Origin: Daedaleopsis sinensis
Lineage: Eukaryota > Basidiomycota > Agaricomycetes > Polyporales > Polyporaceae
Reading direction: 5' to 3'
Length of the DNA: 64,000 bases
Assembly: GCA_033807695.1 (NCBI GenBank)
Contig: CM066305.1
Coordinates: forward strand, 186,001 to 250,000
Shown here: in pieces, positions 4,471 to 64,000 of the stretch
How positions within the stretch are numbered: the stretch's first letter is position 1
How the letters are laid out: each line of letters begins with the position of its first letter
Translations under genes and position numbers: made by a program
Notes under the pieces: generated by a model
The model's input: only the letters and a program-made list of their open reading frames with translations
Database searches by the model: none
Told to the model about the DNA's origin: nothing

Positions 4471-4511
4471 CGCGCTGAGAAGCAGACGAACCCAACCCAA
4501 CCCGACCCATC

Positions 4512-15436: not shown

Positions 15437-16783
15437 TTAAGATGGTGTATACGGAGGAGGCAATGGCTCCGACAGTCCCGACAACCCTGAAATGACAGAC
15501 TCGGCCGCCCGGGTGTCCCGACGTCTGTACCGGTCTCTCCCAACCAGAGAGCGTGATAACCATCCCCGCGAACCCGCTGCCATCGGAGCAGGCTGACGCT
15601 CTGCCACCGTCTGCGGCAGCTCCGATTCGAGAGATAGAGTGCTCGCGATAGCCGGAAGAGGTGGGCCAGGGGGCGAGGTTAGGCTGGTCGCCGCCGAGTC
15701 GGACATGATCATGGGCGGTTTAGAGAGACCGCGGAAATCCTCGGTATTCCTCCACGTCCCGAATGGGCGGATTTCTAAGAAAAAAGCACGACACATGAGC
15801 AAAACGCTAACGCTAGTATCGACACCCACACGTACGCACCGTCGACATCGCGCGCATCCGTACCCTGCGCCCGCCGGGTCCCAAGTCTCCGGTAGCACAT
15901 TACGAGGAACACGGCGAGGATGAGCAAGCCGACGCCGCCGATCACACCTCCGACAATGGCGCCGACGTTGCTGTTGCTGTTGCCTCTGGGCGGGCCCGTG
16001 TCATTCTGCGTCTCTCCTGAGGAGGTCGACTCCGAGGATGGATCGCTGACTGTGCGGCTGCCAGTGAGGATAGCACTGGTCGCAAGCGACTGAGTTAGGA
16101 ATCCGCTTGGAAGACCAGTACTTTCTTCGGAGAGCGACGTGGCGACTGAACGAGACCCAGAAGCTGAATCGATAGATGGACTGATGGAGCCAGAGTCAGA
16201 CAAGAGCTGGGATGTTGAGGCCATGCTCGTTGTCGTGCTGGTAGCGCTTGTCGACGTGGTCCGTGAAGAGGGAGAAGAAGGAGAAGAGGATGGAGATCCA
16301 CCATTGGTTGTGGGCACATACAGAATGTAGTCCAGCCAAAACACGTTCGGCCTCGTCCCATTCACGTTGGTGATCGTGAGCACATGTTTGCCTGGAGCAA
16401 GCATGTCGGACGTGAAGTACTTTTGCGTCGTGATGTAGAGGCCCGGCGCAACAACGGGCGCGGTGAACGTGTCTACGCGCGTGCCGTCTATACTGTAGTC
16501 CGTCGTGGGCACCCCATGCACGTCTACCGAGCCTATAGGACCCCCGACAACGACCTGAGTCCCTGTGATCGTCCGGCTAGCTAAGATGGATTGTCTCATA
16601 TATTCAAGGCATCGCTTAAGACTCACCGGTGAACGTGAATGTGGCCGTCAATCCTGCATCGGCCGCACCATGCTTCGTCCCGTCGATGATCCCTCCGCTA
16701 GTCAAAAACTGCCAACCCGCGGAATACTGTATACTGGGGTCGGCGTCGTCCACGGTCACGAAGGCAGGAGTTACGTCGGACAT
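15437..16783 (-). CDS. PYT1: single-pass membrane protein, PPPY tail
   Basis: Three exons on the minus strand: 16627-16783, 15840-16562 and 15437-15774; 405 residues, both introns phase 1. The N-terminal module starts MSDVTPAFVTVDDADPSIQYSAGW and continues GTQVVVGG, TDYSIDGTRVDTFTAP, ITNVNGTRPNVFWLDYIL. A Ser/Thr-rich stalk of about 100 residues precedes the TM helix VGAIVGGVIGGVGLLILAVF, followed by YRRLGTRR. The 110-residue tail ends in EPLPPPYTPS, a PPxY motif, but lacks the PWYAPP...RAQSLL block found in most other PPxY tails. A head-to-tail neighbour, PYT2, has the closest head (both use the PAFVT-DDADP start), so the two look like one duplication. Confidence 0.88.
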
Positions 16784-16916
16784 TGCGGGGCGATCGTGCT
16801 CGCAGGCGTGCTTGACGGGGTAGCTCGAGGCTGCTCAAGGCCCGGGAGTCCTCAGATTCACGACCGTGACGGTGGAGGTAGAAACTTGAAGTGGCTTGTT
16901 GGCTCGGCAGCGGTCC

Positions 16917-16924
16917 CTTTATAT
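16917..16924 (-). promoter_or_regulatory. TATA-like box of PYT1
   Basis: Minus-strand ATATAAAG lies about 135 bp upstream of the PYT1 ATG at 16783. Confidence 0.45.
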
Positions 16925-18472: not shown

Positions 18473-20063
18473 CTACGCATGGGCGCGACGCCCGATCCTC
18501 CGATAATACACCGCGAAGAGCGCGACGAGCACGAGGAGCAAGAGTCCTCCCTGCAGCATGCTGCCACGTCCTGGCCCTGCAGGCACGAGCATGTCGCGCC
18601 CCTCGAGCGGCACCGCCCAGCCGCGAATCCGCGCACCATCCGTGCCCACTGGCAGAGGAGAAAGCGGAGTGGCTCTCCCCGCGAGCTTCACGGTGGTAGT
18701 GACCGGGGGCGGGGTCACCGTAACCGTTTTCGTCGCGACGGTCACCGTGGTGGTGACGGGGGGCGGGGTGACCGTGCGGGTCACAGGGGGAGGGGTGGAC
18801 ACGACCGTCGCGGTCGTCGTCACTGCCGGCGGGGTGACCGTGCGCGTCGCGACGGTGACCGTCGTCGTCACTGGGGGTAAGACCACTTGGAAAGTCTGGG
18901 TCGTGGTCACGGGGGTCACGACCGTCTGCGTGGTGGTCACGGGAGTCGCCACCGTCTGAGTCGTGGTCACGGAGGATATGACGGTCTCGAAGGTCGTGAC
19001 TGGAGTCGCGACAGTCTCGGTAGTCGTGACTGGGGTCGTAAACGTCTCTGTGGTGGTCACCAGTGCGGTGAACGTGTCGGTGGTGGTCACCGGAGTTGTG
19101 AACGTTTCCGTCTCGGTCACCGGGGTCGTGAACGTCTCCGTAGTGGTGATGAGGTCAGTGAGCGTGTTGGTGACGGTCAGAGGGGTCGTGAACGTCTCTG
19201 TGGTCGTGACCGGAGTTGCGACGGTTTCAGTGGTGGTCACTGGGGTCGTAAACGTTTCGGTAAGGGTCTCTAGGTCAGTGAATGTGTCGGTAGTCGTGAC
19301 CGGGGTCGTGAACGTCTCGGTGGTGGTCACAGGAGTCGTGAACGTCTCGACTGTGGTGATCAACTCGGTGAACGTGTCGGTGGTGGTCACCGGAGTTGCG
19401 ATGGTCTCGGTGGCGGTCACAGGAGTCGCAACTGTCTCGGTTGTAGTCACCGGGGACGGGGTCAGCGTGAGCGTCACCGGGGGAGGTGTCACCTCCCGGG
19501 TCGCAGTGACAGTGACGGGGAGAGGTGTCGACACAACCGTCACGGTCTGAGTAGTGGTCACCCGGGAAAGCGAGGACGACGCCGGAGGAGAGGGCGCTCC
19601 CGGGAGAGGAACGAAGCGGATGAAGTCCAACCAGAAGGTGTTCGGGCGTGTCCCGTCGATGTTTGTGATCGTCAACACGTACTCTCCAGGGAGGAGCTTC
19701 GCCGAGGTGAAGTACGTCACATTGGCGACGCCCCCGCCCGGTTTGACCAGAGGTGCGGTGTATATCCCGGCGGGAATCCCATTTATAGAGAACTCGGCAA
19801 TCGGCCGACCGTTGACGTCCACGGATCCCAGCAGGCCGCCAACAGCGACTTGGGTTCCTGCAAGGGCAAGTGAATATGATAGGTATAAATCTCAACAGCG
19901 AGACTTGCTTACCACTAAATGTGAACGAAGCGGTCATGCCCGTACCCGTGGCTCCATGCCTCGTGCCGTTGACGATTCCTCCGCTGGGGAAGAATTGCCA
20001 GCCGGGTGAGTACTGGACACGAGGGTCGGCGTCGTCGATCGTCACGAAGGCAGGGCTCGACAT
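18473..20063 (-). CDS. PYT2: mucin-like member with a minimal tail
   Basis: Two exons on the minus strand, 19913-20063 and 18473-19857, phase 1 intron; 511 residues. The head is MSSPAFVTIDDADPRVQYSPGW, then GTQVAVGGLLGSVDVNGRP, GIYTAPLV and ITNIDGTRPNTFWLDFI. The stalk is exceptional: about 270 residues made of near-tandem TTTETFTTPV / TTTETVATPV decamers and later PPPVTTTVTVAT units, a dense O-glycosylation substrate. The TM helix (GLLLLVLVALFAVYY) is followed only by RRIGRRAHA and a stop, so there is no third exon and no PPxY tail. The protein could be a decoy or a structural wall-spanning form of the family. The ATG at 20063 matches the family start; an in-frame extension upstream has no ATG. 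Confidence 0.88.
18690..19570 (-). repeat. Degenerate 30-bp minisatellite coding for the Thr-rich stalk of PYT2
   Basis: On the plus strand the region reads as repeated GTGGTGGTCACnGGnGTCGnnAnCGTnTC units. On the coding strand each unit gives about ten residues (TTTETFTTPV or TTTETVATPV). The copies differ mostly at third positions, so the array is old or kept by selection rather than newly expanded. Confidence 0.8.
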
Positions 20064-29859: not shown

Positions 29860-31425
29860 ATGTCGTCCCCGATGCTCGTCGACGACAGCAACCCCGTCGT
29901 ACAGTACGCTCCTGGGTGGATTTGGGACCAGCTCGTGCACGACGAGGTAGACCATACGCGACATGGGGCGGCGATTGCAGGGATATCCACGCGACTTGGG
30001 TTTACAGGTGCGTTACTCATCATAATCTTACTCTTTCCGATTCTCAAGAAACATCGCTTGCGAACAAAGGCACGGGCATCGACGTGGTTGGCACCCTCGA
30101 GCCTACGGACCTCAACGGGCTACCCTCGACGGTGTACAGTATCGACGGCAAGAACATATCCACGTACACCGCTCCCCTCACGACTTCAAGTACCTTCAAC
30201 GTGACGTTTTTCTCGATGCGCGACCTCGAGCCGGGTACCCACGACATTGTGATCACCAACCTAAATGGCAGTAGTCCAAACATCTTTTGGCTTGACTTTT
30301 TCCTCGTCTACTCCTCTACCTCCGATGTGTCAAAGATCACTCCGTCTACATCTTTCTCTCCGTCCCTACCGACCTCGACTTCGTATGTTACTTTGCATGC
30401 CGTGCGTAGTCTCTTCACTGAGCAATTTCCCCCTTAGGTCTTCTTCCTCGGATCCTGTCGCTGCTACAGGTGGTTCCTCCGGTACGCATCCCCGTGCTTT
30501 CTCGCAGTCCGTAACAGATTCCGAATACGAACATTGTTAGGAGCAGCGAAGTCTAACAACGTTGGCGCCATCGTTGGAGGTATTATTGGAGGTCTCGCCT
30601 GTTTACTCCTCTTCGGCATTTTCCTTCTGCTTTGGAGAAGGCGTAGCCAATCCACCGCTGAACACTCAGATCGTAAGGTCTCCTCCTGAACAATGCGTTT
30701 CACATGGTCAAACCTATCTCATCTACACAGATATCGCGCCATTCTCGCCAGGGAGTGAGCCGTCGATGTCCGCATTCTCCCAAAGCTCCCCAGACAATAC
30801 GCACTCATTTCCGCGCGAAATGATCTTCAACGCCGCCGGCATCGCCTCGCGTCCCCCGACGTCGAGACATTTGCCAGACACAGCATCCACCATTAACCCA
30901 TCCAACTTCACGGAAGTCAGCTCGACGCACCCGTCCCTCTCCCAGAGTGCGCTCAACACCGCGCTGCCCTCCTCCGCCCTCCTCCCGCACTCGCACACGG
31001 CACGCGTCGAGGCGAAGCTTCATGAGTCCATCTACGGCTCCTCGTCAGCCCTGCCCGACTCAGGCTCCTCCGCGCACCAGTCCAGTCCCAGCCCCGCTGC
31101 AGCGCACTCGGAGTTCGACCCTGCCTCCTCCCCAGATGTGACGTCCGAATCAAACCCGAGCAGCCCGAGCCCGGTCAGCCAGAGCCTGGACTCAGCCACC
31201 TCGCTCGTCCATGCCGAGGTCTCGCGCGCACCGTGGACCGCGCCTGCGGAGCGGCAGTCCCGCGCGCAGTCCTTACTCCGCGCGTTCTCGATGCGCAACA
31301 ACGATCGCGCGCCCACCGGCCCTATTAGTGCAGGCGCAAGAGGCGGCGTGTCGGCGCGGGACGTCGACTCGGGCCTCAGATTGTATAGCGATGTCGCCCT
31401 GCCACCGCCTTATACCCCAGACTAA
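29860..31425 (+). CDS. PYT3: five-exon member with both tail motifs
   Basis: Exons 29860-30007, 30070-30382, 30438-30481, 30541-30672 and 30731-31425; 443 residues. The head is MSSPMLVDDSNPVVQYAPGW...VDHTRHGAA, then GTGIDVVGTLEPTDLNG, STVYSIDGKNISTYTAP, FFSMRDLEPGTH, ITNLNGSSPNIFWLDFFLV. The stalk is short and split by two extra introns (phases 2 and 1), unlike the single-exon stalk of most relatives. The TM helix is VGAIVGGIIGGLACLLLFGIFLLLW-RRR. The long tail (about 230 residues) has SRAPWTAPAERQSRAQSLL and ends DVDSGLRLYSDVALPPPYTPD, with a clean PPPY. Head and start are closest to PYT6 (MSSPMLVDDSNP--QY). It is the first plus-strand copy. Confidence 0.88.
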
Positions 31426-32606: not shown

Positions 32607-34141
32607 ATGGCCCGCCAGCTGATCGACGACAGCGACTCTGCCGTCCAGTACAATCCACCCTGGCATCCCGATCCGGGTGCGTACATGATGGTCGACCGCT
32701 CCAGGCACGGCGCATCGAACACCGGCGATACTGCGACTCTGTCATTTACCGGTGCGTACAATACCTTGGTGCGCACTTTGAAACTCTCTAATGCGCAGTA
32801 TCAGGTACCGGCATCGAGGTCTTCGGGTATGTGGGGGCGTCGTCGGTGAACGGATATCCCACGACGACGTACGCTATCGACGGCAGCGAGGTCAGGTCCT
32901 ACACACCTCCGTTGGTACCTAACGGCCTCCCGCTGTACAACATCTCGTTCTTCGCGAGCCGTGGGCTGGCATATACCGCACATAAATTGGTGATTACGAA
33001 CATCAACGGCACGAGCCCGAACATGTATTGGCTGGACTACTTTCTTGTTGATGTTCTCACCGACCCTGAGCCCTCGACTCCCAGTCCTGCTTCTATTATC
33101 CCGACCTCGTCGTCAACGACTGAGTTTTCTGTAACCTCAAGCACGACTTCGACCTCCCGAAGTTCGACATCCTTTTCGACCGCCTCCAGGACATCCAAGT
33201 CTTCAGGCGTCTCTACGTCTTCAAGCACCTTCACGTTCTCCTCCGCCATTACTACTGTCTCTACCGTGCCCGAGGGCAATACTTCGTCAATCGCGCCAAC
33301 GTCGCCTGTAGCGACCTCGACGCTTCCATTCTCAGATTCGATCACCTCTTCGGAGACTTCTGTCCCGACCATGACAACAACATCATCCCAAGTTCAAACT
33401 TCCTCCCATCTCCGGGTCGCAGTCATCCTCGGAAGCGTCTTCGGGGTGCTCGTCCTCACATTCATCATCGCATACCTCTGCTTCCGCAAGCGGCGCAAGG
33501 AAAAGAAACACGAAGGCACGTCTCATCCCTATTGAACGACATCTTTACTCACCCAATGTCATGCAGCAATCATTCCTTTCACGAACCCGCCCTCCAGCGC
33601 CGCCCACATAGCGCGCTCCCTCATCGTCAGCTTGACCTCGGACCCGTTCGGCAATATGCCGAAGTCGAAGGACATCGTGACCTCACACAGCCCCCTCGTC
33701 CCCTCGCGCGACATGCAGAAGTCCAACCCATCTAGGCGCGGCCGACCGCTGCCCACGCCGCCTCTCTCGCTCGCGGAGCCGCGTCCTGCCCCCTCTCCGA
33801 CCCGCCCGTGGTCGCTCTCGACGTCCATGCGTTCCGACATCGTCTCCACACAGATGGGGACTCGGAGCCTCCTCTCTGCCCCCGCTAGGAGCCGGTCGCG
33901 TGCGAGAGTCGAAGCGGGCGCCGGTACAAGCAGGGCTGTGGATGAAGGAGGGGCGGCGAGCTCACCGAGTCGGTCATGGCTTGGGCTTAACAGGTCCTCC
34001 ACGATCTCTTCGTCCGGTCCGAAGGCGGCAGGGCGCGCGTTCGTCCAGGAGAAGCTGTTTGACGTCATATATGGGGACGGACGGAGGGATTCGACTGGGT
34101 CTGGTGGTGTACGCCGCCCGGGTGGACGTGCCCGCATCTGA
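32607..34141 (+). CDS. PYT4: member with a divergent tail, possible GC-AG intron
   Basis: Model: 32607-32751, 32805-33515 and 33567-34141; 476 residues. The head is MARQLIDDSDSAVQYNPPW...DRSRHGAS, GTGIEVFGYVGASSVNG, TTTYAIDGSEVRSYTPPL, ITNINGTSPNMYWLDYFLVD. A stalk of about 120 residues is nearly pure Ser/Thr. The TM helix is VAVILGSVFGVLVLTFIIAYLCF followed by RKRRKEKK. Exon 3 is in frame only if intron 2 uses a GC donor (G/GCACGT). The resulting 190-residue tail is basic and Ser/Pro-rich (SRRGRPLPTPPLS) without PPxY. Without that splice the protein stops at 33535 after GTSHPY, giving a tail of about 17 residues. Head and TM are secure; the tail is not. Confidence 0.75.
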
Positions 34142-34719: not shown

Positions 34720-36332
34720 CTACTCCGGAGTATACGGCGGAGGGAGCGAATTGTCGCTATACAGGCGTAGCCCCGAGTCCTGGTGCTGCGGCGGGGGCGG
34801 CTGCTGGCCCATGTCCACACCCCCGCGATTTGGGGTCAGCGGGGCAAGAGGCGGGTTCAGCGCCGCTCGCCGCCCGCCCGCCGAGAGCACGCTCAGGAGG
34901 GACTGCGCGCGCGCGTGCCATCCGGGCGGCGCGTACCACGGCGAGCGCGATGCCTCTGACTGCACGACTGGCAGTGTGCCGTCGACGATGGTCTGCCCAG
35001 CTAAGGGCGAAGCGGTGGGGAAAGCTGGGGCGGGGGCTGCCGTCGGCGTGGTGGGAGAAGTAAGGTGCGTGGAGCCGTATGAGGACGAGTCTTGGGACTT
35101 CTCGCTAAGGAACGCGTGAGCGTTCGGGTCGGCGAACGTTGACTCCGGTCTGGGAAGGAGCCCGATCTGGGAGGGAGAGGCCAAGTTGTACGTGTAGAGG
35201 TGCGAGTCGGCCTCTGGCAGATGCGCTTCGGCACTTGTACGAGGCGGAGTTGCGTGCAGAGACGCCATTCCCTTAGCACGCCCCCAAGTACCTAGAGGAG
35301 CGGTCCGCTCGTACGTCTCGATTGCTAGTAGACAGGGCCAAAGATGGAGAGGACGGGTGTCAGAGCTTCACCGTGTCGGAGCCGGTCGCAGAAGCACCCG
35401 AGACGTACCTTGACGACGGGAAGACCGTCTGCGCACAATATACACAACGACCAGCAGCGCCACCAACACAAGCCCACCCACGACCGCACCCACGATTACC
35501 CCAATACTGCCACCGTGCTTTCCGGACGCTTGCTCCGAGCCCGCATTCGTGAGCCCGGTTGGTGAACTACCGAATGGCGTCGATGATCCGGATCCCAGTC
35601 CGAGTGGAATGGTCGACTGGGTACCGATGTTTCCTACTGCTGTGGGGTCGGAGGTGCCGGTAGACTTAGACGTTCCCAGTGTGTTCGTCGGAATCGAGTC
35701 AGTCGTCTGCGCTGATCCAGAAGTACTTGTGACCGTAGGAGTGATCGTGGGATCCGTCCCAGAAGCAGTCTGTGTCTGACTCGCCTGTCTATCGTCGGGA
35801 GGCGATGTTGTGTGCGTCACCCCTACGTCAGGGGGCGATGTCGTGTGTGTAGTAGGGCCCGGGGCCGTGGCAGGTGTAGACGTGATGACACGGAAATAGT
35901 CGAAGGAGACCTCCCACATCACTGCGCCGCCGTCGCCAAAGAACTGAAAGGAGTGGCTTTGAGAAGGAAGGTTGTACACCGAGCAGAATGTGACGGTGGG
36001 CTTGGGAGAGGTGAGATCCGCGAGAGGGATGTTCGCGCCGTCGACGGCACAGGAGATGTCTGGCGGCTGCTGGAGTGTCGGGTCAAGATCGAAGAACCCG
36101 ACGAGCTCGATCCCGTTCCCTGATAGATGGAGATGTGGAATTGGCCGGAAAGGAAGCAGAGTGACCGCATCGGCGTACCTTCAAAAGAAAACGTTGCATT
36201 CGAGGTCATCCCCCTCGGGGGCGTGTGTGTCGTCTGTTGCGACGCATCGGAGCGGGAGTCGGTGTGCCAGTGGTGGGCAGGAAGGTATATCACCGCAGCA
36301 TCGTTATCGTCAACGATGTGAGAGGAGCTCAT
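34720..36332 (-). CDS. PYT5: class II head, both tail motifs
   Basis: Three exons on the minus strand: 36179-36332, 35409-36119 and 34720-35291; 478 residues, both introns phase 1 (intron 2 is long, 117 nt). The head differs from the common type: MSSSHIVDDNDAAVIYLPAHHW...TSNATFSFEG, then GTGIELVGFFDLDPT, DISCAVDG, VTFCSVYNLPSQSHSFQFFG and WEVSFDYFRVI; it lacks NGTSP-FWLDYF. Similar heads occur in PYT7 and PYT14. The stalk is Thr/Ser/Pro-rich and the TM helix is IGVIVGAVVGGLVLVALLVV then YIVRRRSSRR. The tail has SRSPWYAPPGWHARAQSLLS and QDSGLRLYSDNSLPPPYTPE. A Gln/Pro run (GQQPPPPQHQ) precedes the last motif. The acceptor at 35292 was chosen because it alone restores frame. Confidence 0.87.
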
Positions 36333-44610: not shown

Positions 44611-46217
44611 CTACTCTGGCGTATACGGTGGCGGCAGCGCCATCTCGCTATACATCCTCAACCCCGAGTCCTGATAGCGCTCCGCCGAGGGTTCTCGCTC
44701 CCGCTCGACCGTCCGCGGCCCTCCCGCAGAGAACGCGCTGAGCAGCGACTGTGCGCGCGACTGCGCGCCGGGCGGCGCGTGCCAAGGCGCACGCGCGATC
44801 TCGGACCTGAAGTTCTGGGGGGTATCAGGGGGTATCAGACCGTCGGGATGCTCGTTGGTAGGGGTGAGGCCTGGGTCCGAGTGATGGTCGCTCGCGCTGA
44901 CGAGAGCGGCGGAGGACGAGGAGTGGATGGTGGTTGCGCCGTACACCGATGGTGAGAGCTTGGAGTCTCCTGCCGAAGAAGAGATGCGACGGCCTGCGAC
45001 CGCCGACGGGCTGATGGAAGCTGAGCCTGACGAACTCGTGGGCATCGGTGGGGCAGACGTGTTTTGAGGAGGGTTTGAGGGTATATGATATGCCGAAGAA
45101 TACGCCGACTCGGAGAATCTGCTCTCGGACGGAGGTCGGGATGGATACGACGGCGACGAGGAGAGGGTAGTCCAATTGCGTGTCGTTTCGGACATCTGTC
45201 GGCCAAGGGGAGGATTGATGTCTGTGAGAATCGGCGTCGTCAGAAAGTGATCTGCGTGATGGGATCGGAGCACGCACCTGCGTGTTCCTGGGATCGCAGT
45301 CTGCGCCGACGCCGCGCACAGAAGAACGTGATAGCAATGAGCACCAGCAAGGATATGCCACCGATCACAGCGCCCACGACTACAGCTGTTCCTGAGCTGG
45401 AGTTCGTGGCGGTTGGGTCCGACGCGGAGCCGAGCACGGTGACTGTCTGAGTACTTGCGGAGGACGACAACGTCGCTGACCCTTCGCTGGCCGAAGCAGC
45501 GGCATTTGAAGAGGTCGGCGATTCTGTGAGGGGTGTAAGAGACGATGCAGAGTTGATCCGGGATTGAGATGATGATGTTGTCGTTGTGTCAGAGGATGAC
45601 GAGGTCACGCTCTCGGACCGCGAAAGAGATGGGGAAGACCCAGATGTCGATGTGGAAGTGGACGGCTGGGTGTTAGTGTGAGGTGGTGAAGTCGTAGCTG
45701 TCGAGGAAGGGACCGTGTGGGTGGTGGTGGTGGTGGTAGGCCCGCTGTTGGTCGGCGGCTGACTGTAAATAAGGAAATAATCTAAGTAGAATGTTGCTCG
45801 GTCGGACCCAAAGTCGGATGTGATGATAATCGTATGTGAACCCGGGGAGAGATCGCGCTTTGTGAAGTAGGTGACGTTGTACTGCGTCGTACTGGTGGAT
45901 GGGGCAGTATAGGAGCCTACGGAGAGCCCGTCGATTGTGTATGTAGTCTTGGGCTGGCCGGCACCGTCAGATGGCATGAGAGTCCCCACCACTTGGATTC
46001 CGGTCCCTGTCAGAGTAAAAAGATGCGATGTCTATTCGGCCATAGTGCGTGAAGAAGCAATCTGCTCACCAGAGAACCCGAGCGAGGCGGTTATGCCATC
46101 TATGTTCAACCAATGCCTGGTGTGGTCGACCTCGTCCTGAACATTCGGCTCCCACGTCCATCCCGACTGATACTGTACGACCGGGTCCGAGTCGTCAATT
46201 AGCTGTGGGGATGCCAT
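44611..46217 (-). CDS. PYT9: archetypal member, PPPY tail
   Basis: Three exons on the minus strand: 46070-46217, 45278-46006 and 44611-45221; 495 residues, both introns phase 1. The head is MASPQLIDDSDPVVQYQSGWTW...VDHTRHWLN, GTGIQVVGTLMPSDGAGQP, TTYTIDGLSVGSYTAPS, YFTKRDLSPGSH, and SDFGSDRATFYLDYFLI (no NGTSP). A stalk of about 140 residues is nearly all Ser/Thr/Pro. The TM helix is AVVVGAVIGGISLLVLIAITFF, then CARRRRRLR. The 200-residue tail is Ser-rich and carries ARAPWHAPPGAQSRAQSLLS and YQDSGLRMYSEMALPPPYTPE. It shows every family feature cleanly and is a good reference sequence. Confidence 0.92.
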
Positions 46218-47684: not shown

Positions 47685-49140
47685 CTACTCCGGTGTGTAA
47701 GGCGGCGGCAGTGCCGTCTTAGTGTACATTCGCAACCCAGAGTCCCTATACTGCTGCACCGGCTGCTCGTATTCGGGAGTACGCCTGCCTCGAGCCGAGA
47801 AGGCGCTGAGTAGAGACTGTGCGCTGAGTAGAGACTGTGCGCGCGAGTGCCATCCGGCTGGGGCGTACCACCGCGAGCGCGCGACCTCAGAACAGAAGTT
47901 CTCGGGGGTGTCTGCGCGGCCATGTCCAGAAGGGTATGCGGGCGTGTCGAGGACGGCGTGGCCGTCAGCGGGTGGAACTGGCGTCGAACCAAAGGGCCCG
48001 GGATGGATTGGAGGGATGTCGCCGCTACGAGGTCCGGATATGGGTGCGGCGGTGGACAAGAAGTTGAATTCGTGCATCGGATCCCCTGGATATGACGATT
48101 CGAGGAGGCATGCGGACCGCTCGGGCTCAATGGTGACTCGGAGATGATGCTTCCTAAATATGTGGGATGCAGGCTATAATCAGAAGATTGTGCCGAGGTT
48201 CGGTGGAGTGGAGGAGATCGAGGGGTGGAGGTCGCCGACGCCGCGGAAGAAGCAAGGTTATCCCATTCGCGCATCGACATCTGCCGACTAGGAGTAGAGT
48301 TGGGTAAGGCAGAATTGCACCCTGTGAGAGTACACATTGATCAGGATACCTTTCATCATTTTAAACAAAGAGAGAAGCACGTACTTGGAGTCCCTGAGGG
48401 TTGTCGGCGATGTCGGCGCATATATAAGTAGCATCCAATGGGGGTGAGAATGAGTAAGGACAGGCCGGCTAGAACCGCTCCGACGACGACGGTTGTATTC
48501 AATTTGACAGGCTACTTGGAGGTGGCTGATAGGGTTTGGGGACGGAGACATGAGTTTTGTCACCGTCTGGGAGATTTTAGAGGAAGACAAAGTCGACGTC
48601 GTGTCTGCTCTTGTCTGCTCCCTGAGCATTGAATAATGTAGCGAGATGTGCAGCAACAGAAAGAGAGGATGACCCGGTGACGTCGGAGGTGGAGCTCGCG
48701 GCGGTGTGGGACGTAGGAGATGATGAGACCTGGGAGGTTGCAGTCTGACCTCTGGGAAGGATGCGTGGGAGGACGAGCCTGAGGGTCGAGAGGAGGTAAG
48801 ACTAGAATTCAAGTTACAGCACCGAGCGGCCGCGGCTGTGAGAGGGAGGCTGGTGGAACGACTTTCCTCGACGAAGTCGATGGAGAGGAGGCTTTAACGG
48901 GAGCAGATGCTGAAGGAATGTCATCATCCGGCGACCCAGTATCAATCAGGAAGTAGTCCAACGACACTTGGGCTGGGTTGGTCTGAAAGTCGGTGGTCAC
49001 GACGATAGAGTGAGGGCCCGGCTCCAAATCGCGCTTTGAGAAGAAAGTGACAACGTTGTACTAGGGCTCACTCGTAGAAGGAGCGGTATAGGAGCTATCG
49101 TACCCTTCTAGGAGCGGGGAGTCGGAATTAGTGACGGTCG
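47685..49140 (-). pseudogene. PYT10: frameshifted member
   Basis: Minus-strand remnants are part of the head (SYTAPSTSEP, a TAG stop at 49061-49063, then FFSKRDLEPGPHSIVVTTDF and VSLDYFLIDTG), a TM segment in a different frame (TVVVGAVLAGLSLLILTPIG), a tail-exon start (PSRQMSMREWDNL, like PYT9 GRQMSETTRNW) and, after a further frame change near 48075-48130, the tail end ARSRWYAPAGWHSRAQSLLS ... YRDSGLRMYTKTALPPPYTPE. LLSAQSLLSA shows a 15-bp tandem duplication. No exon 1 is found. The closest relative is PYT9. The PPPY end is still intact, so decay is recent or the tail is under separate use. Confidence 0.72.
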
Positions 49141-50268: not shown

Positions 50269-52308
50269 ATGTCCTCCCCTATCCTTATTGAAGACGATGA
50301 CTCGAGGGTGCAATACTCCAGCGGTTGGATCACAGACCCGTTTGCGGCTGCTCACGGAGGTTCAAGGCATGGTGCCGCGCTGCCTGACATCACGGTGACT
50401 CTCGATTTCGAAGGTATGTCGTAGCGTTGAGCATACATGCATTCACCAAGACTGAGAGTGGACCTCAGGGACCGGTATACAAGTTATCGGTATCCTTGAC
50501 CGTTCAGTCGATAGTGGATATGCGACCACCTCATATTACATCGACGGAAAGCCTGTCTCCACCTACACCTCACCGTTTGAAGACGCCAGACAGTTCAACA
50601 TTTCCTTCTGCTCCGTCCACGATCTCTCCGCTGGCAAGCATACAATCCTTATCACCAACGACAATGGCACTAGTCCCAATCAGTTCTGGCTGGACTACTT
50701 CCTCGTTGACTCGGGATCGAGCACACCGCAACCGACGTCAAGTCTAACCTCCCAGACTCCTTCTCCGACGTCGCCTTCGATCTCATCCCAGTCTCTGAAA
50801 ATGACGCAGTCGATCACATCTCACTCGGATACCTCGGTTACGACTCCTTCGCTCATTTCCACGTCTACAACTCATTCGCTCTCTTCAACGACCACACCGT
50901 CTACAACGTCTACAACGTCTACAGCTTCTACGAATCTTTTGCTCTCTTCGCCGTCTATGCTTTCCGCCTCTCAGAACTCGTCCGACGGTATAGTGCTCAT
51001 TCCAACGTCCTCGGATGGCTCGTCTACTTGGACTACCTCGTTAGCAAGTGCTGACCCGTCAACATCCTCCTTTTCCGCGGCCTCATTGTCGTCGTCGGGT
51101 ACGTCGTCCTCGACCAATGCAAACATCATCGGAGGCGCAGTCGGCGGCACAGTCTCTCTCGCGCTCATCGCAATCATCCTATTTTTTGTGTGGCGGTTCC
51201 GTAAGAACAAAGGTGAATATCACGTACCCATCTATCGCGCCCTAACTACAGCTGACGAACACTTCTACCGCTTCTTTCTCCCGCCGCTATCATCTCAGCT
51301 ATTGCAGAGAAGGCGCTCGTTGCACACGACACGTCTTCCTACGCAGGCACCGAATACAGATCCGCCGCCGGTCTGATCGCACACCGTCACCACTGCCCAT
51401 GCTGCGCTCACTCGACAAGTTCATGCTGCTCGCACTCGCACGGGCACTCGCACGCCCGCTCGCGCCCATCTTACTCGGACATGTCCTCCCGTCCGAGTCA
51501 TTTTGGTGGCTCGATCATCTCGCGCACAAACACGATGGCGGGCACGGACGAGCCGTACTCCAGCGGCCATCGGTACTACGGCTCTGCCCACCTTCCCTCC
51601 CGCGCGCTCAGCGGGGGCCGCTCCCAGTCGCGCGAGCACTACACGTCCGAGTCGCGTTCTCGCGGCCGGGGCCGCTCGCGCACCCGCCACCGCACCGTAT
51701 CCTCCGTGCCGACCTCACAGCTCTCCGAGATCTCTCCCCCGCCCTCCCCTCCGCCCGCAAACTGGTCTCTTGCTCGAGCCCTCGCAGATGTACGGGCCCA
51801 CGCTCAGACGCGGTCCGATGCAGACGTCCTGTCGCCGCGGCGACGAGACCCGATCGCGTCAGAGGCGTCAGAAGAGCCCGGACAGCCTGACGAGATGGTT
51901 GAGCTCGACAGAGGCAGGCTGAGCGCGTACAGCTACAGCGCTGGGCCTGAGCCGTCAAGTGCACGGCCGGTCCCGTCAACTGCAAGTGGCGGGACAGGTC
52001 CTGATGCCGGCGACGGAGTGGAGACCATCCGAAGGATGGAAGTCGTGCAGGCGCCGTGGTACGCGCCGTCCGACCAGCACCCGGATGCGCAGTCGCTCCT
52101 CAGCGCGGTTGCTGGCAGACGGGAGCGACGCAGACGCAGGCGGGGAGTTGGACGCGAGGGAGCGGGAGCGCGGGAGGGAGATGAGGCAGTTACCCCGACG
52201 GCCGTGCAAGTGGCGCGGCCCCTTGGAACTGAGCCAGCGGAGGAGGAAGACTCGGGGCTGAGGATGTACGCCCAGAGCGTACTGCCTCCGCGGTATACTG
52301 CGGAGTAG
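50269..52308 (+). CDS. PYT11: longest member, His/Cys-rich juxtamembrane tail
   Basis: Three exons: 50269-50413, 50469-51212 and 51299-52308; 632 residues, both introns phase 1. The head is MSSPILIEDDDSRVQYSSGW...GGSRHGAA, GTGIQVIGILDRSVDSG, TTSYYIDGKPVSTYTSPF, ITNDNGTSPNQFWLDYFLVD. The stalk is Ser/Thr-rich and the TM helix is IIGGAVGGTVSLALIAIILF-FVWRFRKN. The 335-residue tail opens with a His/Cys cluster (HRHHCPCCAHSTSSCCSHSH), then an Arg/Ser-rich stretch (SRSRGRGRSRTRHR), QAPWYAPSDQHPDAQSLLSA and EDSGLRMYAQSVLPPRYTAE, so the PPxY is PPRY and the final residues differ from the YTP norm. The acceptor could be 9 nt further on (CAGCTATTGCAG), adding or removing three residues. Confidence 0.85.
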
Positions 52309-53176: not shown

Positions 53177-54444
53177 ATGTCGGACCCGGAGCGTCTCGAT
53201 GACGAGGACAAACACATCAAGTACTCTCCAGTGATTGGGTGGCTATCGGGCTCTTTGGTGGTAATCCCTGGAGTACCGGAAGCTGCGGGAGCTACCTTGC
53301 ATGAAGCGATCGGGGGAGACAGCAAGGCTACCATTAGCTTCCATGGTGCGTCACTCCATATATGCCGCACACGTTATTTGACATCCGCGTTTAGGTACCG
53401 GCATCCAGGTTTTTGGTGTATCCCCACCTGGAGCCGTCCCGACAGCGTCATATACCCTCGACAATAGTCCCATCGACTCGGATCCCAGATCCCCTCCTTC
53501 TGGTCCCCTCGATGTACTACTCTTCTCAAAGCAGGGTCTAGAGCAGAAGGCACATGAGCTGATCATTGCTGTCAATGCCCCTCAACAATACTTCCTAAAC
53601 TATGTCCTTGTCTCCGACACCAAGCCCAGCGATTCAAGCTCAGCCCTTAGCAGCGATACATCCGAGTCCACTAGTACCGCAACCCTTACATCCTCTCCCT
53701 CTACCGGTCCCACAACCGCCTCAGTCGCTCTTTCAACCAACGCGCCTACGTCGGATGACTCGTCCTCTACCACCCCAGTGCCAGGACTTCCTTCCAAGAC
53801 GCCCTCTGAAGCGAGTTCGACACCGGGGGTCGTAACTGTCACAAAGTACAACTCGAGCTCAACGCGAGACCCTACTTCTTCAATCCCTGCAGCAGCGAGC
53901 ACAGCTTCTTCCTCAGATGCAAATGCTTCAGCACGCGGAGGGCTCTCTCAGGAGCCACACCATACGAACACCGCTGCCATCGTCGGCGGTGTCCTCGGGG
54001 TGTTGCTCGTCATCGCGCTGGTTGTCATCTACGCCATGATCCGGAGGCGGCGCAAGTCGAGGGCAGAATGTGAGTGGATATTAACACAGCGTCAAACTTG
54101 TGCTTCTGAACTCACTCGTATCATCTCATGCAGTGCGCTTCCCGGACGAGACATACACATGGCGTGACGGCAAGGACGACGCGGGGGCTTGGAATGAGCC
54201 GAGCTTCCCGGAGCCTACGCCGCTCTCCGATACCCCTCATCAGTCAACATTCGCTCCATCTCAACTGTCGTACGAGACTTCTGCCCCTGTACCAGTGGCA
54301 CCCCACGCTCCTTACTCCAATCCGATGGTTCCCGACTACCCTCCCCTGCAACCACACCAGATTTCGCCCGATCCTTTCCGACAGCCTCGCCATCCTGCTC
54401 TCTCTAGAGATCAGGATGCATACGCCACTTCCGCTATGACATGA
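53177..54444 (+). CDS. PYT12: member with a Pro-rich tail without PPxY
   Basis: Three exons: 53177-53345, 53395-54069 and 54134-54444; 384 residues, both introns phase 1. The head is divergent: MSDPERLDDEDKHIKYSPVIGW...GDSKATISFHG, GTGIQVFGVSPPG, ASYTLDNSPIDSD, FSKQGLEQKAHELIIAVNAP, YFLNYVLVSD. The stalk has about 120 Ser/Thr/Pro residues. The TM helix is AAIVGGVLGVLLVIALVVIYAM, then IRRRRKSR. The tail of about 110 residues (LRFPDETYTWRDGK, Pro/Tyr-rich, PYSNPMVPDYPPLQPHQ) lacks both conserved tail motifs. The start at 53123 would add MKSFTICVLLSPLRSPGY, which resembles a weak signal peptide; it was rejected because of the TATA position and the family start pattern. Confidence 0.85.
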
Positions 54445-55324: not shown

Positions 55325-56321
55325 ATGGCCTCGCAAATCTTCATTGACGACAATGATCCCGTAGTACAGTACTCCGAATCGCCAGGCTGGAACCTCGACA
55401 CATTCCCTCTCGCGTTTAGGGGAACGAGACATCAGGCTGTGCATGCTGGCCAAACTGTCTCTCTCACCTTCCACGGTGAGTCCCATCCCGCCTGCGTCCG
55501 AATGAGTGTACATAGCAAGACATACTGACAAGTCGTCTTAGGGACCGGTGTTCAGGTCATCACGACAGCAGAAAATGTCATACGAGCTGGAGTACCTCAA
55601 ACGACATACACTATCGATGGAGCTTTTGTGCAGAATAAAACCCAGTCTCTCAAGCCCGATGGGGACACCGAGTTCAACGTGACTGTGTTTGAAAAGCGGG
55701 ACCTTTTCGCAGGATACCACCAGCTTGTGATCACAAATAACAACGGCACCAGTCCATCCGCATTCTGGCTCGACTATTTCATAGTCGATGTCACTCCCGA
55801 ACCTCCTTCCGAAACCACCACACTCCATACAAGCACGCATCAAGTACACACTGCGTCTACCGCTTACCTGTCTTTGCCTTCGACTGTCCCGCCGCCGACA
55901 CCATCAGAGCTCTGTACCCACGGCCAACCGCATTCGACGCAGAGTGGGAACCGTACCGATGGCGCTGGTCCAAATTCACAGGTTCAATTTGATTCATCGA
56001 CGCTCTCTAAGTCAAGTTCAGCTACTACGAGTACTACATACCCATTTGTGTTTTCCAATCCTTCCACCAGTGCTATGGCTGGGATCGTGCGGGGCAGTGG
56101 GTCTTCAAACACTCCCGCGATAGTAGGAGGCGCTGTAGGAGGTGTCGCCCTGGTTGCCGTTCTGCTCGGCCTCGTACTCTTTGTGCGAAGACGGCGAGCG
56201 GCCACACGTTCAGGTATGTCAACGCAGAGTCCCGACGTCAATTTATAAACTAACAAACAATCCAGAGGTCATTTGGGCGAACCTCCCCTCCAGACCCACT
56301 ACTCTCGCGACTTCCTCGAGG
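54921..56321 (+). repeat. Inverted duplication, right arm (PYT13 promoter and head)
   Basis: Matches the minus strand of 42420-43792 from AGATCTGTCATTGTACGG through the 5' flank, exon 1, intron 1, exon 2 and the start of exon 3 (EVIWANLP). Confidence 0.85.
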
Positions 56322-56516
56322 CCCGACTCCAAGCTATCAGCCTATAGCTACGGGCGTTCTAGTCAGAGTGCCAGCTACGGAGAGCTATATCAGTCGGCGC
56401 AATATACTACCCCGGATTCCAGAGAGAACACGTCCCCATACGGCACTGCGAATGCATCAACGGCAGAGTTGTCTTTACACAGCTACAGCCTCACGCAGTC
56501 GTATCACGCACTATGA
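55325..56516 (+). CDS. PYT13: member with a Tyr-rich tail
   Basis: Three exons: 55325-55475, 55542-56213 and 56266-56516; 357 residues, both introns phase 1. The first 51 residues are identical to PYT8 (MASQIFIDDNDPVVQYSESP...). Then come GTGVQVITTAENV, TTYTIDGAFVQNKTQS, ITNNNGTSPSAFWLDYFIVD. The stalk differs from PYT8. The TM helix is IVGGAVGGVALVAVLLGLVLF, then VRRRRAATR. The tail of about 85 residues has ten Tyr, mostly in Ser-Tyr-Gly/Ser settings (SAYSYGRSSQSASYGELY, QSAQYTTPDSREN, SLHSYSLTQSYHAL), and no PPxY. It is probably the intact form of the tail that is cut short in PYT8 exon 3. Confidence 0.9.
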
Positions 56517-57260: not shown

Positions 57261-57754
57261 GCAAGTACGATCGCTGCGAGTTCGACGACGACGACGGCTA
57301 TCCTCCCCCGCATGCATACAGCGCTTTTCCCGGGATGGAAGGTTCTGCGTTATCTGGATTGTCCGGGATGAGTAGGGTTGCCGGGATGCCTCCTCCAGGA
57401 TATGTGTAAACCGTACGTCCGTCTCTTCCACGCTGCCCAATACTCCCCTCCTCAGCCGCAAATGCAGCCCGGCGTCAACCCGTCATTCCCCACATGCCCA
57501 TGCCTGAACCCGCCTTTGCAGGAGTCAGAGAGCCCGAGGCTCCCGTCATCCCTCCTCTTCCTCCCTCGCACCGCAGCCGCGCAGGCACGCCATATCACCC
57601 TCCGAATCGCATGTACCATTCGCTCGACTCGGATCGCCTCGACGAAGAGACTCGCGCGCGACTGCAACCCCGCTCGCTCGAGGACAGCACGGGCCGCACG
57701 ATCGCGCGCGAGACCCCCGACACACGCCTGCACCTGCACCGTAGTACGGCATAA
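57203..57754 (+). pseudogene. Unassigned tail-like coding remnant
   Basis: Two adjoining pieces look coding but do not join cleanly. The first (57203-57406) reads LAFSSISDMTVVKTAAVPSR...FDDDDGYPPPHAYSAFPG...MPPPGY. The second has QYSPPQPQMQPGVNPSF (from about 57438), then a change of frame near 57485-57500 and HMPMPEPAFAGVREPEAPVI...RMYHSLDSDRLDEET up to a stop at 57754. The Pro/Tyr content suggests a cytoplasmic tail like those of the PYT family, but no head or TM is found upstream. The first 14 codons recur at 61145-61215. It may be a relic of a PYT copy or of an unrelated gene; I do not assign a function. Confidence 0.4.
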
Positions 57755-58721: not shown

Positions 58722-60387
58722 ATGACAAACGTCTACACCCTCGATGACACAGGAAGCCCGGGGACGGTCTACTATGTCAGCGAGGATAACTGGCATATCA
58801 CGACAGTCGCTGCAGCTTACGGAGGGACGGTGCATATCCCACCCAGAATCTCGGACGTAGGAGAGGTTGCGCTGGCGGCCGCGTTCACGGGCACGTTCCT
58901 CCTATCTTATATATCGCAGTCCGCACGAACGGAATCTGACTGCTTGCTAGGTGTGGGGATCGAACTCGTCGGGTTCTTCAACCAGGCTTCCGGCCTCGAA
59001 CCGCCCCATGACATGTTCTGTGGCATAAGTCACCCGGATCGGTTGTTGGGATTACCGCAAGTCACGGTCTCAGTAACCATAACAGCGACATCTGGGCCCG
59101 CCGTTACATTTTGCGCCATAAGCGGCCTTTCCGATGATGCCTATGAGTTTTACTGGATGGGCACTGCAGGACCAGAGATGTCACAGATCTCGTTCGACTT
59201 CCTTAGAGTCATCAGCTCTACCCCTACTGCACCGATGGCAATCCCTACAGGAAGTTCTATATCTCGATCCCAGCCGCCCGACAGCACCATTCCATTACCA
59301 AATATACCCGCAAGTGTGCCGATGGCAATCCCTACAGGAAGTTCTATATCTCGATCCCAGCCACCCGACAGCACCATTTCATTACCAAATATACCCGCAA
59401 GTGTGCCGATGGCAATCCCTACAGGAAGTTCTATATCTCTATCCCAGCCGCCCGACAGCACCATTTCATTACCAAATATACCCGCAAGTGTGCCGATGAC
59501 AACCCTTGCAGGTTCTGTGTCTCAATCCCAGCCGCCCGATGGAGATAGCTCGCACCATATCACAAGGAATGCCACTTTGGAGATAGCAATCTGCATCAGC
59601 ATCATCCTCCCAGCGGGTCTCATCATCACCTTCTTCCTCTTCCGCAAATTACGCCACAAGCGTCCTCAAAGTGAGTCTGCTGCGCCTGCACTCGTATGCT
59701 TTGATCTAGCGTTAGGACACTCATGAAACGCCTGCCGCAGCGAATTGGGCAAACATGGGGCCTACACGAGAGAGCGACTCAGGGAGCATCATCCCCGAAT
59801 CACATTTGAACCCGCGTGGCTTACCAGAAACGGGATCTCCGACCTGCCTCCTCCTGTCGTCGCCTACAGGACTGAGTCAGCGCGACGTGTCATCTCCATC
59901 CATCCCCAGTATTCTGTCCCTGTCACCGACATCTAACCTCGCGGAGCAAAACTCAGGAAGCGACATCTCTACTGTAGTACACTCTTCCAATCTCGCTACT
60001 CTATGTCACGACACCCGGTCTACAACTGCCCAAGAGAAGCTTCAGGAGCTTCTCTACCACCCATCTCCCACCATCAATCCCCGTCCAATCACCACCCGCT
60101 CTAGCACGGCCTTTGACGCACAGTCCGTGTTAAGCCCGTCGGACACCATGAGCACTAGCACCGTCACCCAGACCTCTCCAACGGCCACGTCTCTCGTGCG
60201 TGAGGAGGCTCTGCGCGCTCCGTGGATCGTTCCCGTACACGAGGAGTCGCAAGCTCAGTCTTTACTACATCTCTACATGGCGCGGAGAGGCCGTGAACGC
60301 CGCCAGGCTTCTCAGACCCGCGATGTGGACTCCGGAATGCGGCTGTACCAGGAACCACACCTCCCTCCTCCATATACTGAGGACTAG
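58722..60387 (+). CDS. PYT14: class II head, repeat stalk, PPPY tail
   Basis: Three exons: 58722-58890, 58951-59670 and 59741-60387; 511 residues, phase 1 introns. The first intron has a GC donor (G/GCACGT) and is 60 nt and open, so an unspliced form (531 residues) is also possible. The head is MTNVYTLDDTGSPGTVYYVSED...YGGTVHIPPRIS, GVGIELVGFF, HDMFCGI, VTFCAISGLSDDAYEFYW, MSQISFDFLRVISS, as in PYT5 and PYT7. The stalk carries three full 29-residue repeats (PMAIPTGSSISRSQPPDSTI...) plus a degenerate fourth. The TM helix is LEIAICISIILPAGLIITFFLF, then RKLRHKRP. The tail has LRAPWIVPVHEESQAQSLLH and DVDSGMRLYQEPHLPPPYTED. Confidence 0.87.
59234..59520 (+). repeat. 87-bp tandem repeat in the PYT14 stalk
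   Basis: Units start at 59234, 59321 and 59408, with a partial fourth from 59495. The first three differ at only a few bases (for example CGATCC versus CTATCC), while the fourth is diverged. The unit length is a multiple of three (29 codons), so copy-number change keeps frame and lengthens the stalk. Confidence 0.92.
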
Positions 60388-61528: not shown

Positions 61529-62530
61529 ATGGCTGGGCCAATGTTCGTCGATGATAGCGATTCCCGTGTTCAATACTTGCCGGACTGGGACACAGATCAC
61601 TTTGCTCAGGCAGTAGGTGGGACAAGGCGTAAGGCCGTCCATGCTGGTCAGACGGCAACGCTGGCCTTCCACGGTGAGTATACACATCCTGTTTACCGAC
61701 TGCTTTGACTGATATCTTCCGTCACAGGGACTGGGATCCAAGTCGTCAGCGCCGCGGAATCTGTGGTCCATGCAGGTCACCCACAGATGACGTTCAGCGT
61801 CGACAATGGGGCTTTCGTACAGACCGTCTCCCAGAAGCTTCTACCTGACGGAAAAACTACGTTCAATGTGACCGTGTTCTCCAAGCGCGATCTACCTCTT
61901 GGGGCTCACCAATTGGTCATCACAAATAACAACGGCACTAGTCCATCAATATTCTGGCTCGATTACTTCCTCGTCGATACCTCTCCACCCACTCCTAGTT
62001 CTTCCACGTCCGCGCAGAGCTCGGGATCATCCAACCCTGACACGATATCAACGAACACCGTGCTACCAACCCTACTGCCTCCAACCCCGACTGTCATGCA
62101 CGCTGCTTCAGACTCGCATCCAGGCCAGCCACCCATACCAACAACCACCCTCGTCATCATTCTAGGTGTGATAGGCAGCATCTCCTTGACGATACTCATC
62201 CTCGGGACCGTATTCTTTGTGCGGAGACGGCGGCTCGCAAGGGGATCAGGTGCGTTACGATGTATCTTATTCCTCGATCTATGTTGCTCGTATTCTGACG
62301 TGCTGCATGATACAGCTCCTAGCGGCGGACGAGGAGATGATGTCCTGTACGGTGACGACAAGTCTCTAGTGTCCCGGACCGACTCGAAGTCGTCATACTT
62401 CCCGCCCAGCGCCCGGTACGCATCGCTATTCAAGTTCACCCTCCCTAGATCCAAGCAGCCAGGCGCTGCACCCTCGTTCACTACACTCGCATCGACGCAA
62501 GCAACCGTCCAGTCGTGGCACGCGGTATAG
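61529..62530 (+). CDS. PYT15: short member with a basic tail
   Basis: Three exons: 61529-61673, 61728-62249 and 62316-62530; 293 residues, phase 1 introns. The head is MAGPMFVDDSDSRVQYLPDW...GTRRKAVHAGQTATLAFHG, GTGIQVVSAAESVVHAG, MTFSVDNGAFVQTVSQKLLPDG, FSKRDLPLGAH, ITNNNGTSPSIFWLDYFLVD; this groups with PYT8 and PYT13. The stalk is short (about 55 residues). The TM helix is LVIILGVIGSISLTILILGTVFF, then VRRRRLAR. The 70-residue tail (SGGRGDDVLYGDDKSLVSR...TVQSWHAV) lacks the conserved tail motifs. Confidence 0.88.
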
Positions 62531-63700
62531 CTCATAGACTAGACGGTCACAACCTAGTCGCAACCACGCAGTGAGTCCTGTTACTGGCTACTTCGATGGT
62601 TGTACCGGCGTACTGAGCCAGCATAGGTTGATTGAATTGATGCGTGCGTACTCAACAGTCATCTATTCACTCGGTCGAAGCGGAGACGGAGACGGCTGTG
62701 CCGTCTCTGGCTATCTCTGAGGAAGCTCTACCGATTCAGAAGGCGGGTTGGCACGACAGTGTAGAATATGCGTTCGACACGTTCGTTCTGTACTGTTGCG
62801 CAGCGTGGTATCAGATACCCAGGACGCTTCCAGGCACTTCGGACCAGTCTTGTACTCGTCCCACACGCACGACGACGACTGCGAGCATGATCGAATCCTG
62901 CAGATGTCAAAACACGTTCGATCTGCTCGCTACACATCTGAAGGGCAACAAGCATCTGTCCGCAGCGCGGCGTCCATCTCGAGCCACGTCCGTTTCGTGC
63001 CTCAGACAATGCGGAATGTATCCCGAGAAGGAGGAACATGGCCCGATGAAGAGAGGCAGATTGACGCGTCCTCGAGCCTGTGTACGTATCTCATGGAACG
63101 AAGTTGTCGTGATATGCATGTCATATCGTGGCTGACAATCTGTACTCCAGGATCCGTGCCTCGCCTCTCGAACGCGGTGGCCCCTATCGACGACCTTAGT
63201 TAGCATGATTTCGCACCATGTACCGCCCGAGCGTCCGATGATCAACAGTCAATGGCATGGGTAAGGTTCGCAGGTGACCAGGTCGTCCATCTGAAGCTCT
63301 GTTGCTGACTTGGCAATCTCAGGAAGGCTGTTCTAAAGTCGCAGAATGCAGAGGTGCTTCGTTCTTCAAACAAAGTGAAGCTTCGAGTCCATCTTCGGAT
63401 GAGCCAAGGATAGGATGTGTGGGGGCGCAACGCCAGTAGCGAAGGTGCGTCGTCGCGCGACAAGATGCTGTGATGGTCCTCATTATATCTGTCCCATAGA
63501 CGCCACCTCATGACAGCGTTGCGATGCAGGCCCTGCAGGCAAGCACGCTTGAAATAGCCTCTGCTGGTGGATGTAGGGTGTGCCCTCTTCCGCCTGTCGA
63601 GACTCTGCACTACATCCACGAGGCGTCCCTGGACGTCCACCTTGCGGCCAATCCACCGCTCCTCCCTCTCCAGTCTGAGAGCTGCCGCAATTGAGCAAGA
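62531..63700. other. Region with unassigned coding-like segments
   Basis: Between PYT15 and PYT16. Two plus-strand stretches look coding: 62665-62765 (SVEAETETAVPSLAISEEALPI) and about 62800-63080 (YTSEGQQASVRSAASISSHV... and DEERQIDASSSL). They could be extra tail exons or a relic gene, but I found no consistent splice model. Confidence 0.35.
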
Positions 63701-64000
63701 ATGTCACAGCCCGCCACGACGACTGTTTTCAACACTGACACGAATATAATCTCATACCCTACTGGGTGGTATCCTGCTCAGGGCGGTAGACTACATAAAG
63801 CCGCATCGGGACTCGCAGAAGCGTTTTTCAACTTCACAGGTGAGTGATCTGTTATGTTCTGACTTCCTATGCATGACAAAGAGACCGCGTAGAAACTGGA
63901 GTCGCCGTACATGGTCTGTACGCTCCGCATGACGAGGGCAATACGTGGGTGAATCTGAGCTGTGTGAGCTGTGAGGTGAATGGCACACCGCTACCGGTTC
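63701..64000 (+). CDS. PYT16: partial member at the right edge
   Basis: Exon 1 is 63701-63839 and exon 2 runs from 63893 off the window, with a phase 1 intron as in the rest of the family. The head reads MSQPATTTVFNTDTNIISYPTGW...AFFNFTG, then ETGVAVHGLYAPHDEG, VNLSCVSCEVNGTPLP. The exon 1 end (NFTG) and TGVAV-G entry fit the family, but the following strand with Cys-Val-Ser-Cys matches neither common head class well. Stalk, TM and tail are outside the window. Confidence 0.7.

Follow-up and report, generated by a model that had tools for sequence, protein, structure and literature searches.

A tandem cluster of stalked single-pass membrane proteins with predicted beta-sandwich heads and C-terminal PPxY motifs in Daedaleopsis sinensis

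Introduction

Several single-pass membrane proteins with PPxY or LPxY motifs have been described as adaptors, including Commissureless (Comm), PRRG, CYYR/Shisa-like proteins and yeast Rcr1/Rcr2 (PMC5578492). In the account given by PMC2810449, the three WW domains of the yeast ligase Rsp5 recognize such PY motifs, and the fungal membrane proteins Ear1/Ssh4, Bsd2 and Tre1/2 are named as Rsp5 adaptors. Here, we analyzed a 64,000-nucleotide stretch of the wood-decay basidiomycete Daedaleopsis sinensis (Polyporaceae; contig CM066305.1, here C6, positions 186001-250000; hereafter the window), which contains a cluster of related genes for stalked membrane proteins. On the basis of their sequences, these are most likely single-pass surface glycoproteins with a stalked head, and most of them end in a PPxY motif. 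All results on this genome were derived from a single assembly (51.60 Mb, 24 contigs), and the counts are lower bounds.

Organization of the cluster

Fifteen head-bearing loci (g1 to g15) were identified between 15.4 and 62.5 kb of the window, 14 of them by tblastn using the window heads as queries and g12 by a profile. The sixteenth locus is an orphan tail fragment without a head (47217-47360, minus strand), recognized by a tail profile (independent E-value 9e-4) and its translation. Exon 1 and intron 1 could be modeled in 12 loci, in all of which intron 1 interrupts the head at the same position. Exon 2 encodes the remaining head, the stalk, the transmembrane (TM) segment and a basic run, and most loci have a tail exon, with intron 2 following the TM segment wherever such an exon was found. 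In the 11 tabulated loci, Ser and Thr made up 37-58% of the stalk, each model had one TM segment (Kyte-Doolittle hydropathy 2.0-3.0), and Lys/Arg residues numbered 0-2 in the 15 residues before it and 4-7 after it. The gene models are computational, except for g9, which is corroborated by a D. nitida protein with 82% identity across the full length, and the parts of g3 that were compared with the D. nitida protein P0006; exon boundaries are uncertain in g4, g8 and g13, and g8 has two donor sites. A preliminary description of this DNA had proposed 16 paralogous loci in about 48 kb sharing one architecture (head, Ser/Thr stalk, TM helix, basic stop-transfer and tail), and both the locus count and the exon, stalk and TM data agree with it.

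The search profiles included window heads (12 in profile A4 and 3 in profile A3), which were omitted in turn as a leave-out control. Under this control g12 was recovered at 2.9e-5, g5 at 3.5e-8 and seven further tested heads at 1e-13 or better, and the g10 head, which was never among the profile rows, was recovered at ~1e-11. The heads of g7 and g14 were not detected by the profile once the rows of their class (E, see below) had been removed; with g5 in the profile, g14 reached 3.6e-5 and g7 still 0.05 or worse. In these profile comparisons, g7 and g14 are tied to the family only through g5.

Across the genome, 53 distinct head places were found at E<=1e-3 with four queries, 11 of them within the window. 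Further runs of heads were located at C1:4.617-4.650 Mb (13), C12:517-554 kb (10) and on C3 (4+4). The window cluster is one of several in this genome. A sample of 44 head loci outside the window, with repeat matches to the same gene counted once, was used for the counts of PPxY motifs and leaders below; L001 and L008, two DNA-pattern matches outside the window, and two more such matches on C8 were left out of it.

C-terminal PPxY motifs and a WW-HECT ligase

A C-terminal PPxY motif, which the preliminary description had passed over, was common far beyond the window cluster. PPxY plus three residues forms the C-terminal end in 9 of the 15 window loci, pseudogene g10 included. When only a head was used as query (residues 1-140 of P0002), 30 of the 32 matches, P0002 itself included, ended in PPxY, always three residues from the C-terminus, counts that are not independent trials since the homologues are interrelated. 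The two others were P0012, which stops just past the TM segment, and P0033. Outside the window, PPxY was found within 12 residues of the stop and after at least 40 open codons in 25 of the 44 head loci, compared with a single one of the 44 when the reverse strand was read and a mean of 1.04 (maximum 4) in 100 dinucleotide shuffles. In 12 of these 25 loci the motif closes the open frame that encodes the head; in the 13 others it lies in a different frame, as it would with an intron after the TM segment. The flanks of the motif differed between clans (EAPPQY, LPPLYQQYP and LPPPYTPE); therefore, the motif has persisted while the remainder of the tail changed.

Several tail classes had been noted before, and this was confirmed. 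A second class ends in -S[WY]HA[LV] without PPxY (SYHAL in g13, SWHAV in g15 and SWHAL in P0033), and g4 has a further non-PPxY tail. A protein search with the C-type head of P0033 returned only P0033 itself; judging from P0033, g13 and g15, the original tails of C-type heads seem to have been of the -S[WY]HA[LV] class. Separately, an open stretch without a detected head between g13 and g14 (57230-57409, plus strand) ends in ...SGLSGMSRVAGMPPPGYV-stop and is perhaps a further orphan tail with a terminal PPxY. The frame of L001 (G000:C3:4621774-4624790) has GTGIQV, a TM segment and a long tail ending in SHKSFYAI without a terminal PPxY, and is possibly a further member with another tail class.

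Seven WW matches were found in five places of the genome, and the three strongest adjoin HECT pieces on the same strand (C2:1396360-1398219), which gives this locus as many WW domains as yeast Rsp5 (PMC2810449). Both features of the adaptor class were observed: a single TM segment with PPxY, on what appears to be the cytosolic side, and a WW-HECT ligase locus in the same genome.

Head classes and predicted fold

The heads could be sorted into A/B (g3, g6, g9 and the remnant g10), C (g8, g13 and g15), G (g1 and g2) and E (g5, g7 and g14), with g4, g11 and g12 as loners. The landmarks GTGIQV, TTYTIDG and FWLDYF, previously ascribed to all loci, hold for the first head class, whereas E-class heads lack them. 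The E class matched the 33-protein profile of the first class at E 1.7e-8 over 128 columns (hhalign), and on this ground the E class and the other classes are regarded as branches of one family; the relationship is based on this match, the leave-out match of g5, the intron place of g5 and the tails. The two head classes side by side that were recognized earlier are thus distinct yet related.

Structure prediction suggested that the first-class head is a beta-sandwich similar to the N-terminal domain of carbohydrate esterase family 2 (CE2-N) and to carbohydrate-binding module (CBM) family 35, whereas the E-class prediction (g14 and three window rows) was uninformative (mean predicted local distance difference test score 44). 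The earlier term 'lectin-like' is supported with respect to fold and not function. A Pfam scan of 12 heads (E<=1) listed six families, no CBM among them and none a significant match, with HMMER filters dropping most matches above 0.1. Sequence searches against solved structures returned only TM/stalk or insignificant matches, and matches in a viral library (phage tail proteins and others) were read as a common beta-sandwich only. In databases the homologues are named hypothetical, uncharacterized or transmembrane proteins. The preliminary description had named no described function for the family, and no described family could be found here, whether in Pfam, NCBIfam or literature searches; the latter, by paper listings, turned up no paper on this family. 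'Galactose-binding domain-like proteins' are mentioned in PMC7827401 among the genes raised in invasive Armillaria tissue, and may or may not be the same family as the cluster heads.

It is also conceivable that these proteins are adhesins or wall-integrity sensors of the WSC/Mid2 type, in which the head would anchor the membrane to the wall, the tail would signal stress and PPxY would set only the turnover of the protein itself. The mucin-like stalk, single TM segment and basic juxtamembrane run fit such sensors, and weak Mid2 matches were obtained for two of five models (E 0.15 and 0.21) and for 3 of the 33 homologues (best E 0.025). However, the two Mid2 matches of the models lie in the stalk/TM part and score 12.3 and 11.8 bits against a Pfam cut-off of 23.2, no WSC domain was among the families listed in Pfam scans of models, homologues and heads, and we know of no fixed terminal PPxY in WSC/Mid2 proteins. 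We consider this explanation unlikely.

N-termini and topology

In each of the 13 window models that include exon 1, translation begins 6-11 residues ahead of the head's acidic pair. In 12 of them an in-frame stop lies 6-180 nt upstream with no further Met between; the only model with such a Met is g12, for which a signal peptide is possible. In 12 models the hydrophobic peak of the first 35 residues ranged from -0.13 to 1.06; g12 reached 1.72, at a point inside the head. The codons directly upstream of the g5 ATG read LSALLLQLVCTLGA, which is leader-like with no Met and could be a relic or the sign of a missed exon. Most homologues (29 of 33) also begin at the head; three of the remaining four have an internal Met just before it and one model begins within it. 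Among the 44 relatives outside the window, a hydrophobic leader (cut 1.6, 10-residue window) preceded the head in 26 and, from a later Met, in 2 more; 8 had no leader and the first exon was unrecognized in 8, two of which (L039 and L042) show a leader under the names L022 and L034. The missing signal peptides of the window loci had gone unmentioned in the preliminary description. The charge bias around the TM segment suggests that the tail is inside and the head outside (N-out), as does the fact that WW partners are cytosolic.

Chimerism, loss and selection

The recombinant locus g8 (41848..43377, minus strand) combines a g13-like upstream region, head, TM segment and start of the old exon 3 with a g6-like intron and PY tail. 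Compared with g13 (55325..56516, plus strand; C-type head, TM segment and SYHAL tail), g8 is 89-92% identical from ~440 bp before its ATG up to and across the head, shows no match in part of the stalk, and is 83% identical through the TM segment, intron 2 and ~50 bp of g13 exon 3. It matches g6 (38156..39441, minus strand; A-type head, TM segment and PY tail LPPAYTPD) at 75% from ~42409, over the g6 exon 2/intron 2 boundary, the intron and the tail, and no direct match between g13 and g6 was found. Blastn end points and the alignment place the junction at 42409..42419 (~10 bp). The head tree places g8 together with g13, g15 and P0033 in a single clade (98/94). Because its clade mates all end in -S[WY]HA[LV], g8 must have acquired its PY tail, which suggests that the tail class under a given head can be swapped by recombination.

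Loss is shown by damaged copies. The g7 locus (39870..41190, approximate limits, minus strand) is a degenerate E-class copy with 5' stops and the tail end out of frame, g10 (47685..49096, minus strand) is a pseudogene with no exon 1 found, an in-frame TAG in the head and the PY tail LPPPYTPE, and the orphan tail at 47217-47360 is a relic. In the flanks, the intergenic segments 56848-57257 and 60747-61207, which follow g13 and g14, are 66% alike and suggest that a larger block was duplicated; those downstream of g8 and g9 (41473-41775 and 44156-44472) are 76% alike.

According to the head tree, g9 and g3 each have a 1:1 counterpart in D. nitida. Between g9 (44611..46217, minus strand; A/B-type head, stalk, TM segment and PY tail LPPPYTPE) and its full-length counterpart P0001, identity was 94% in the head, 80% in the stalk, 94% in the TM segment, 78% in the tail and 88% in the last 25 residues. 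Between g3 (29860..31425, plus strand; A-type head, TM segment, extra stalk introns and PY tail LPPPYTPD) and P0006, it was 89% in the head and 79% in the tail. We rejected the reading of g3 as a frameshifted copy, as extra introns are plausible in it. The best D. nitida match of g10 was P0005 (tblastn E 4e-84, 46-57% identity), and the sample is small, as only three D. nitida proteins were returned. For the heads of g8 and g13, the sole recent pair, the rates of nonsynonymous and synonymous change were dN 0.016 and dS 0.056 (10 differences in 402 bases).

As far as sequence comparison goes, this is a birth-and-death pattern with a constrained head in the loci compared, and not an arms-race signature. 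The head and tail classes, pseudogenes and chimera that the preliminary description had pointed out as signs of birth and death were all recovered; its more specific suggestion of a fast-diversifying recognition or allorecognition family was not supported in this small sample. Receptors of allorecognition or somatic incompatibility would have polymorphic self/non-self heads whose diversity is kept by duplication, chimerism and loss. The tandem clusters, damaged copies and head-tail chimera would suit them, and PMC8229728 describes the mechanisms of somatic incompatibility in basidiomycetes as completely unknown. On the other hand, the g9 and g3 heads are better conserved between species than their tails and both loci are 1:1 orthologues, dN is below dS in g8/g13, and dozens of loci in several clusters stand against the 3-5 loci cited in PMC8229728, all of which makes this explanation improbable. 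Functionally diverse leftovers of fast-duplicating surface proteins, with Rsp5 endocytosis as the only common role, could show the several tail classes, relics and broken copies seen here; this is again quite improbable, given that head and C-terminus are constrained in homologues from many species and that 1:1 orthologues exist.

A possible receptor model

The model that we favor would work as follows. The N-terminal CE2-N/CBM35-like beta-sandwich outside the cell would bind carbohydrate (in the fungus's own wall, in wood polysaccharide or on another hypha), carried through the wall by the Ser/Thr-rich, probably O-mannosylated stalk. Beyond the single TM helix, closed by the basic stop-transfer, the cytosolic tail, in most copies with PPxY at a fixed distance from the C-terminus, would dock the WW domains of an Rsp5/NEDD4-type HECT ligase, and the receptor or its bound partner would be ubiquitinated and then endocytosed or sorted. 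For -S[WY]HA[LV] tails, another partner would be expected. As a whole, we give this model about even chances. More tentatively, the proteins could represent an undescribed fungal receptor superfamily that couples a CBM-like head to Rsp5 via PPxY, with dozens of copies as combinatorial glycan sensing and head-tail exchange close to intron 2; in one clan, a folded head of >130 residues would cross the membrane with no signal peptide.

Dystroglycan also consists of a mucin-like part, a TM segment and a terminal PPPY that binds a WW domain. A similar, ubiquitin-independent linkage, in which the terminal PPPY would bind a cytoskeletal WW protein and tie the cortex to wall glycans, has the same overall plan and the other WW places of the genome in its favor, but is very improbable, as no dystroglycan domain was among the families listed in the Pfam scans of models and homologues and the HECT locus accounts for the three strongest WW matches.

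The terminal PPxY that persists amid changing tails offers a simple handle for study (Rsp5 WW binding), and the CBM-like head a second one (glycans). If both WW and glycan binding proved true, wood-decay fungi would own a ubiquitin-coupled reading of surface glycans, and the clan without signal peptides would lend itself to studies of N-out membrane insertion.

Other loci and neighboring genes

Two loci on the minus strand have G-type heads. The g1 locus (15437..16783; exon 1 16783-16627, exon 2 from 16562 and exon 3 15774-15437) has a stalk with 48% Ser+Thr, a TM segment and the tail end LPPPYTPS. In g2 (18473..20063), a T-rich repeat stalk of ~346 residues, which owes its length to a coding tandem repeat (18890-19458, TTTETFTTPV-like units), is followed by a TM segment and a very short basic end, and neither a tail exon nor a PPxY tail was found. 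The E-class heads of g5 (34720..36332, minus strand) and g14 (58722..60387, plus strand) are combined with a TM segment and the PY tails LPPPYTPE and LPPPYTED, respectively; the g14 stalk contains near-identical 87-bp direct repeats (59232-59539, 91-94% identity), and a normal GT donor was not seen for its intron 1. The loners, all on the plus strand and with a TM segment, comprise g4 (32607..34141; stalk 57% Ser+Thr, other-class tail without PPxY, uncertain exon 3 boundary), g11 (50269..52308; stalk 58% Ser+Thr, long tail ending in LPPRYTAE) and g12 (53177..54444; divergent head, modeled tail without PPxY). The last locus, g15 (61529..62530, plus strand), has a C-type head, a TM segment and a tail of the second class.

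An aldehyde dehydrogenase gene (21489-22175, minus strand; Pfam E 9.9e-45) and a DUF6699 gene (24852-25868, minus strand; Pfam E 6.6e-32) lie inside the cluster. The left flank (2725-14838), beyond which the cluster starts, contains open reading frames for glycoside hydrolase family 43, CDC14-like (septation initiation network), FAA hydrolase, glyoxal-oxidase-like (below cut-off), F-box and RWD-domain proteins.

Comparison with known systems

Dystroglycan is like the cluster proteins in plan, with no common domain among the families listed. WSC/Mid2 wall sensors are likewise stalked single-pass fungal surface proteins; the cluster differs by its PPxY tail, its large tandem family and the lack of WSC among the families listed here. 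The predicted beta-sandwich fold of the heads is shared with CBM35, CBM36 and CBM6 and may be close to that of CE2-N; from these the cluster differs in having no significant sequence membership and a membrane stalk instead of a secreted enzyme. Ear1/Ssh4, which are fungal membrane proteins as well, have SPRY domains and act at endosomes according to PMC2810449, whereas the cluster combines a beta-sandwich head and mucin-like stalk in large tandem families. Neither Gla nor SPRY was among the families listed in the Pfam scans of window models and homologues (25 of 39 listed for the homologues). Comm, PRRG, CYYR/Shisa-like and Rcr adaptors have one TM segment and a cytosolic PPxY/LPxY, as the cluster proteins probably do, and for them NEDD4/Rsp5 recruitment and receptor trafficking have been proposed or shown (PMC5578492). 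They have other N-terminal domains (Gla or Cys-rich in some), and the account in PMC5578492 describes no CBM-like head or long Ser/Thr stalk. Pfam Comm was touched by 1 of the 33 homologues (E 0.029), from which we claim no homology. By analogy, the cluster proteins may work like a Comm/PRRG/Rcr adaptor with a CBM-like head.

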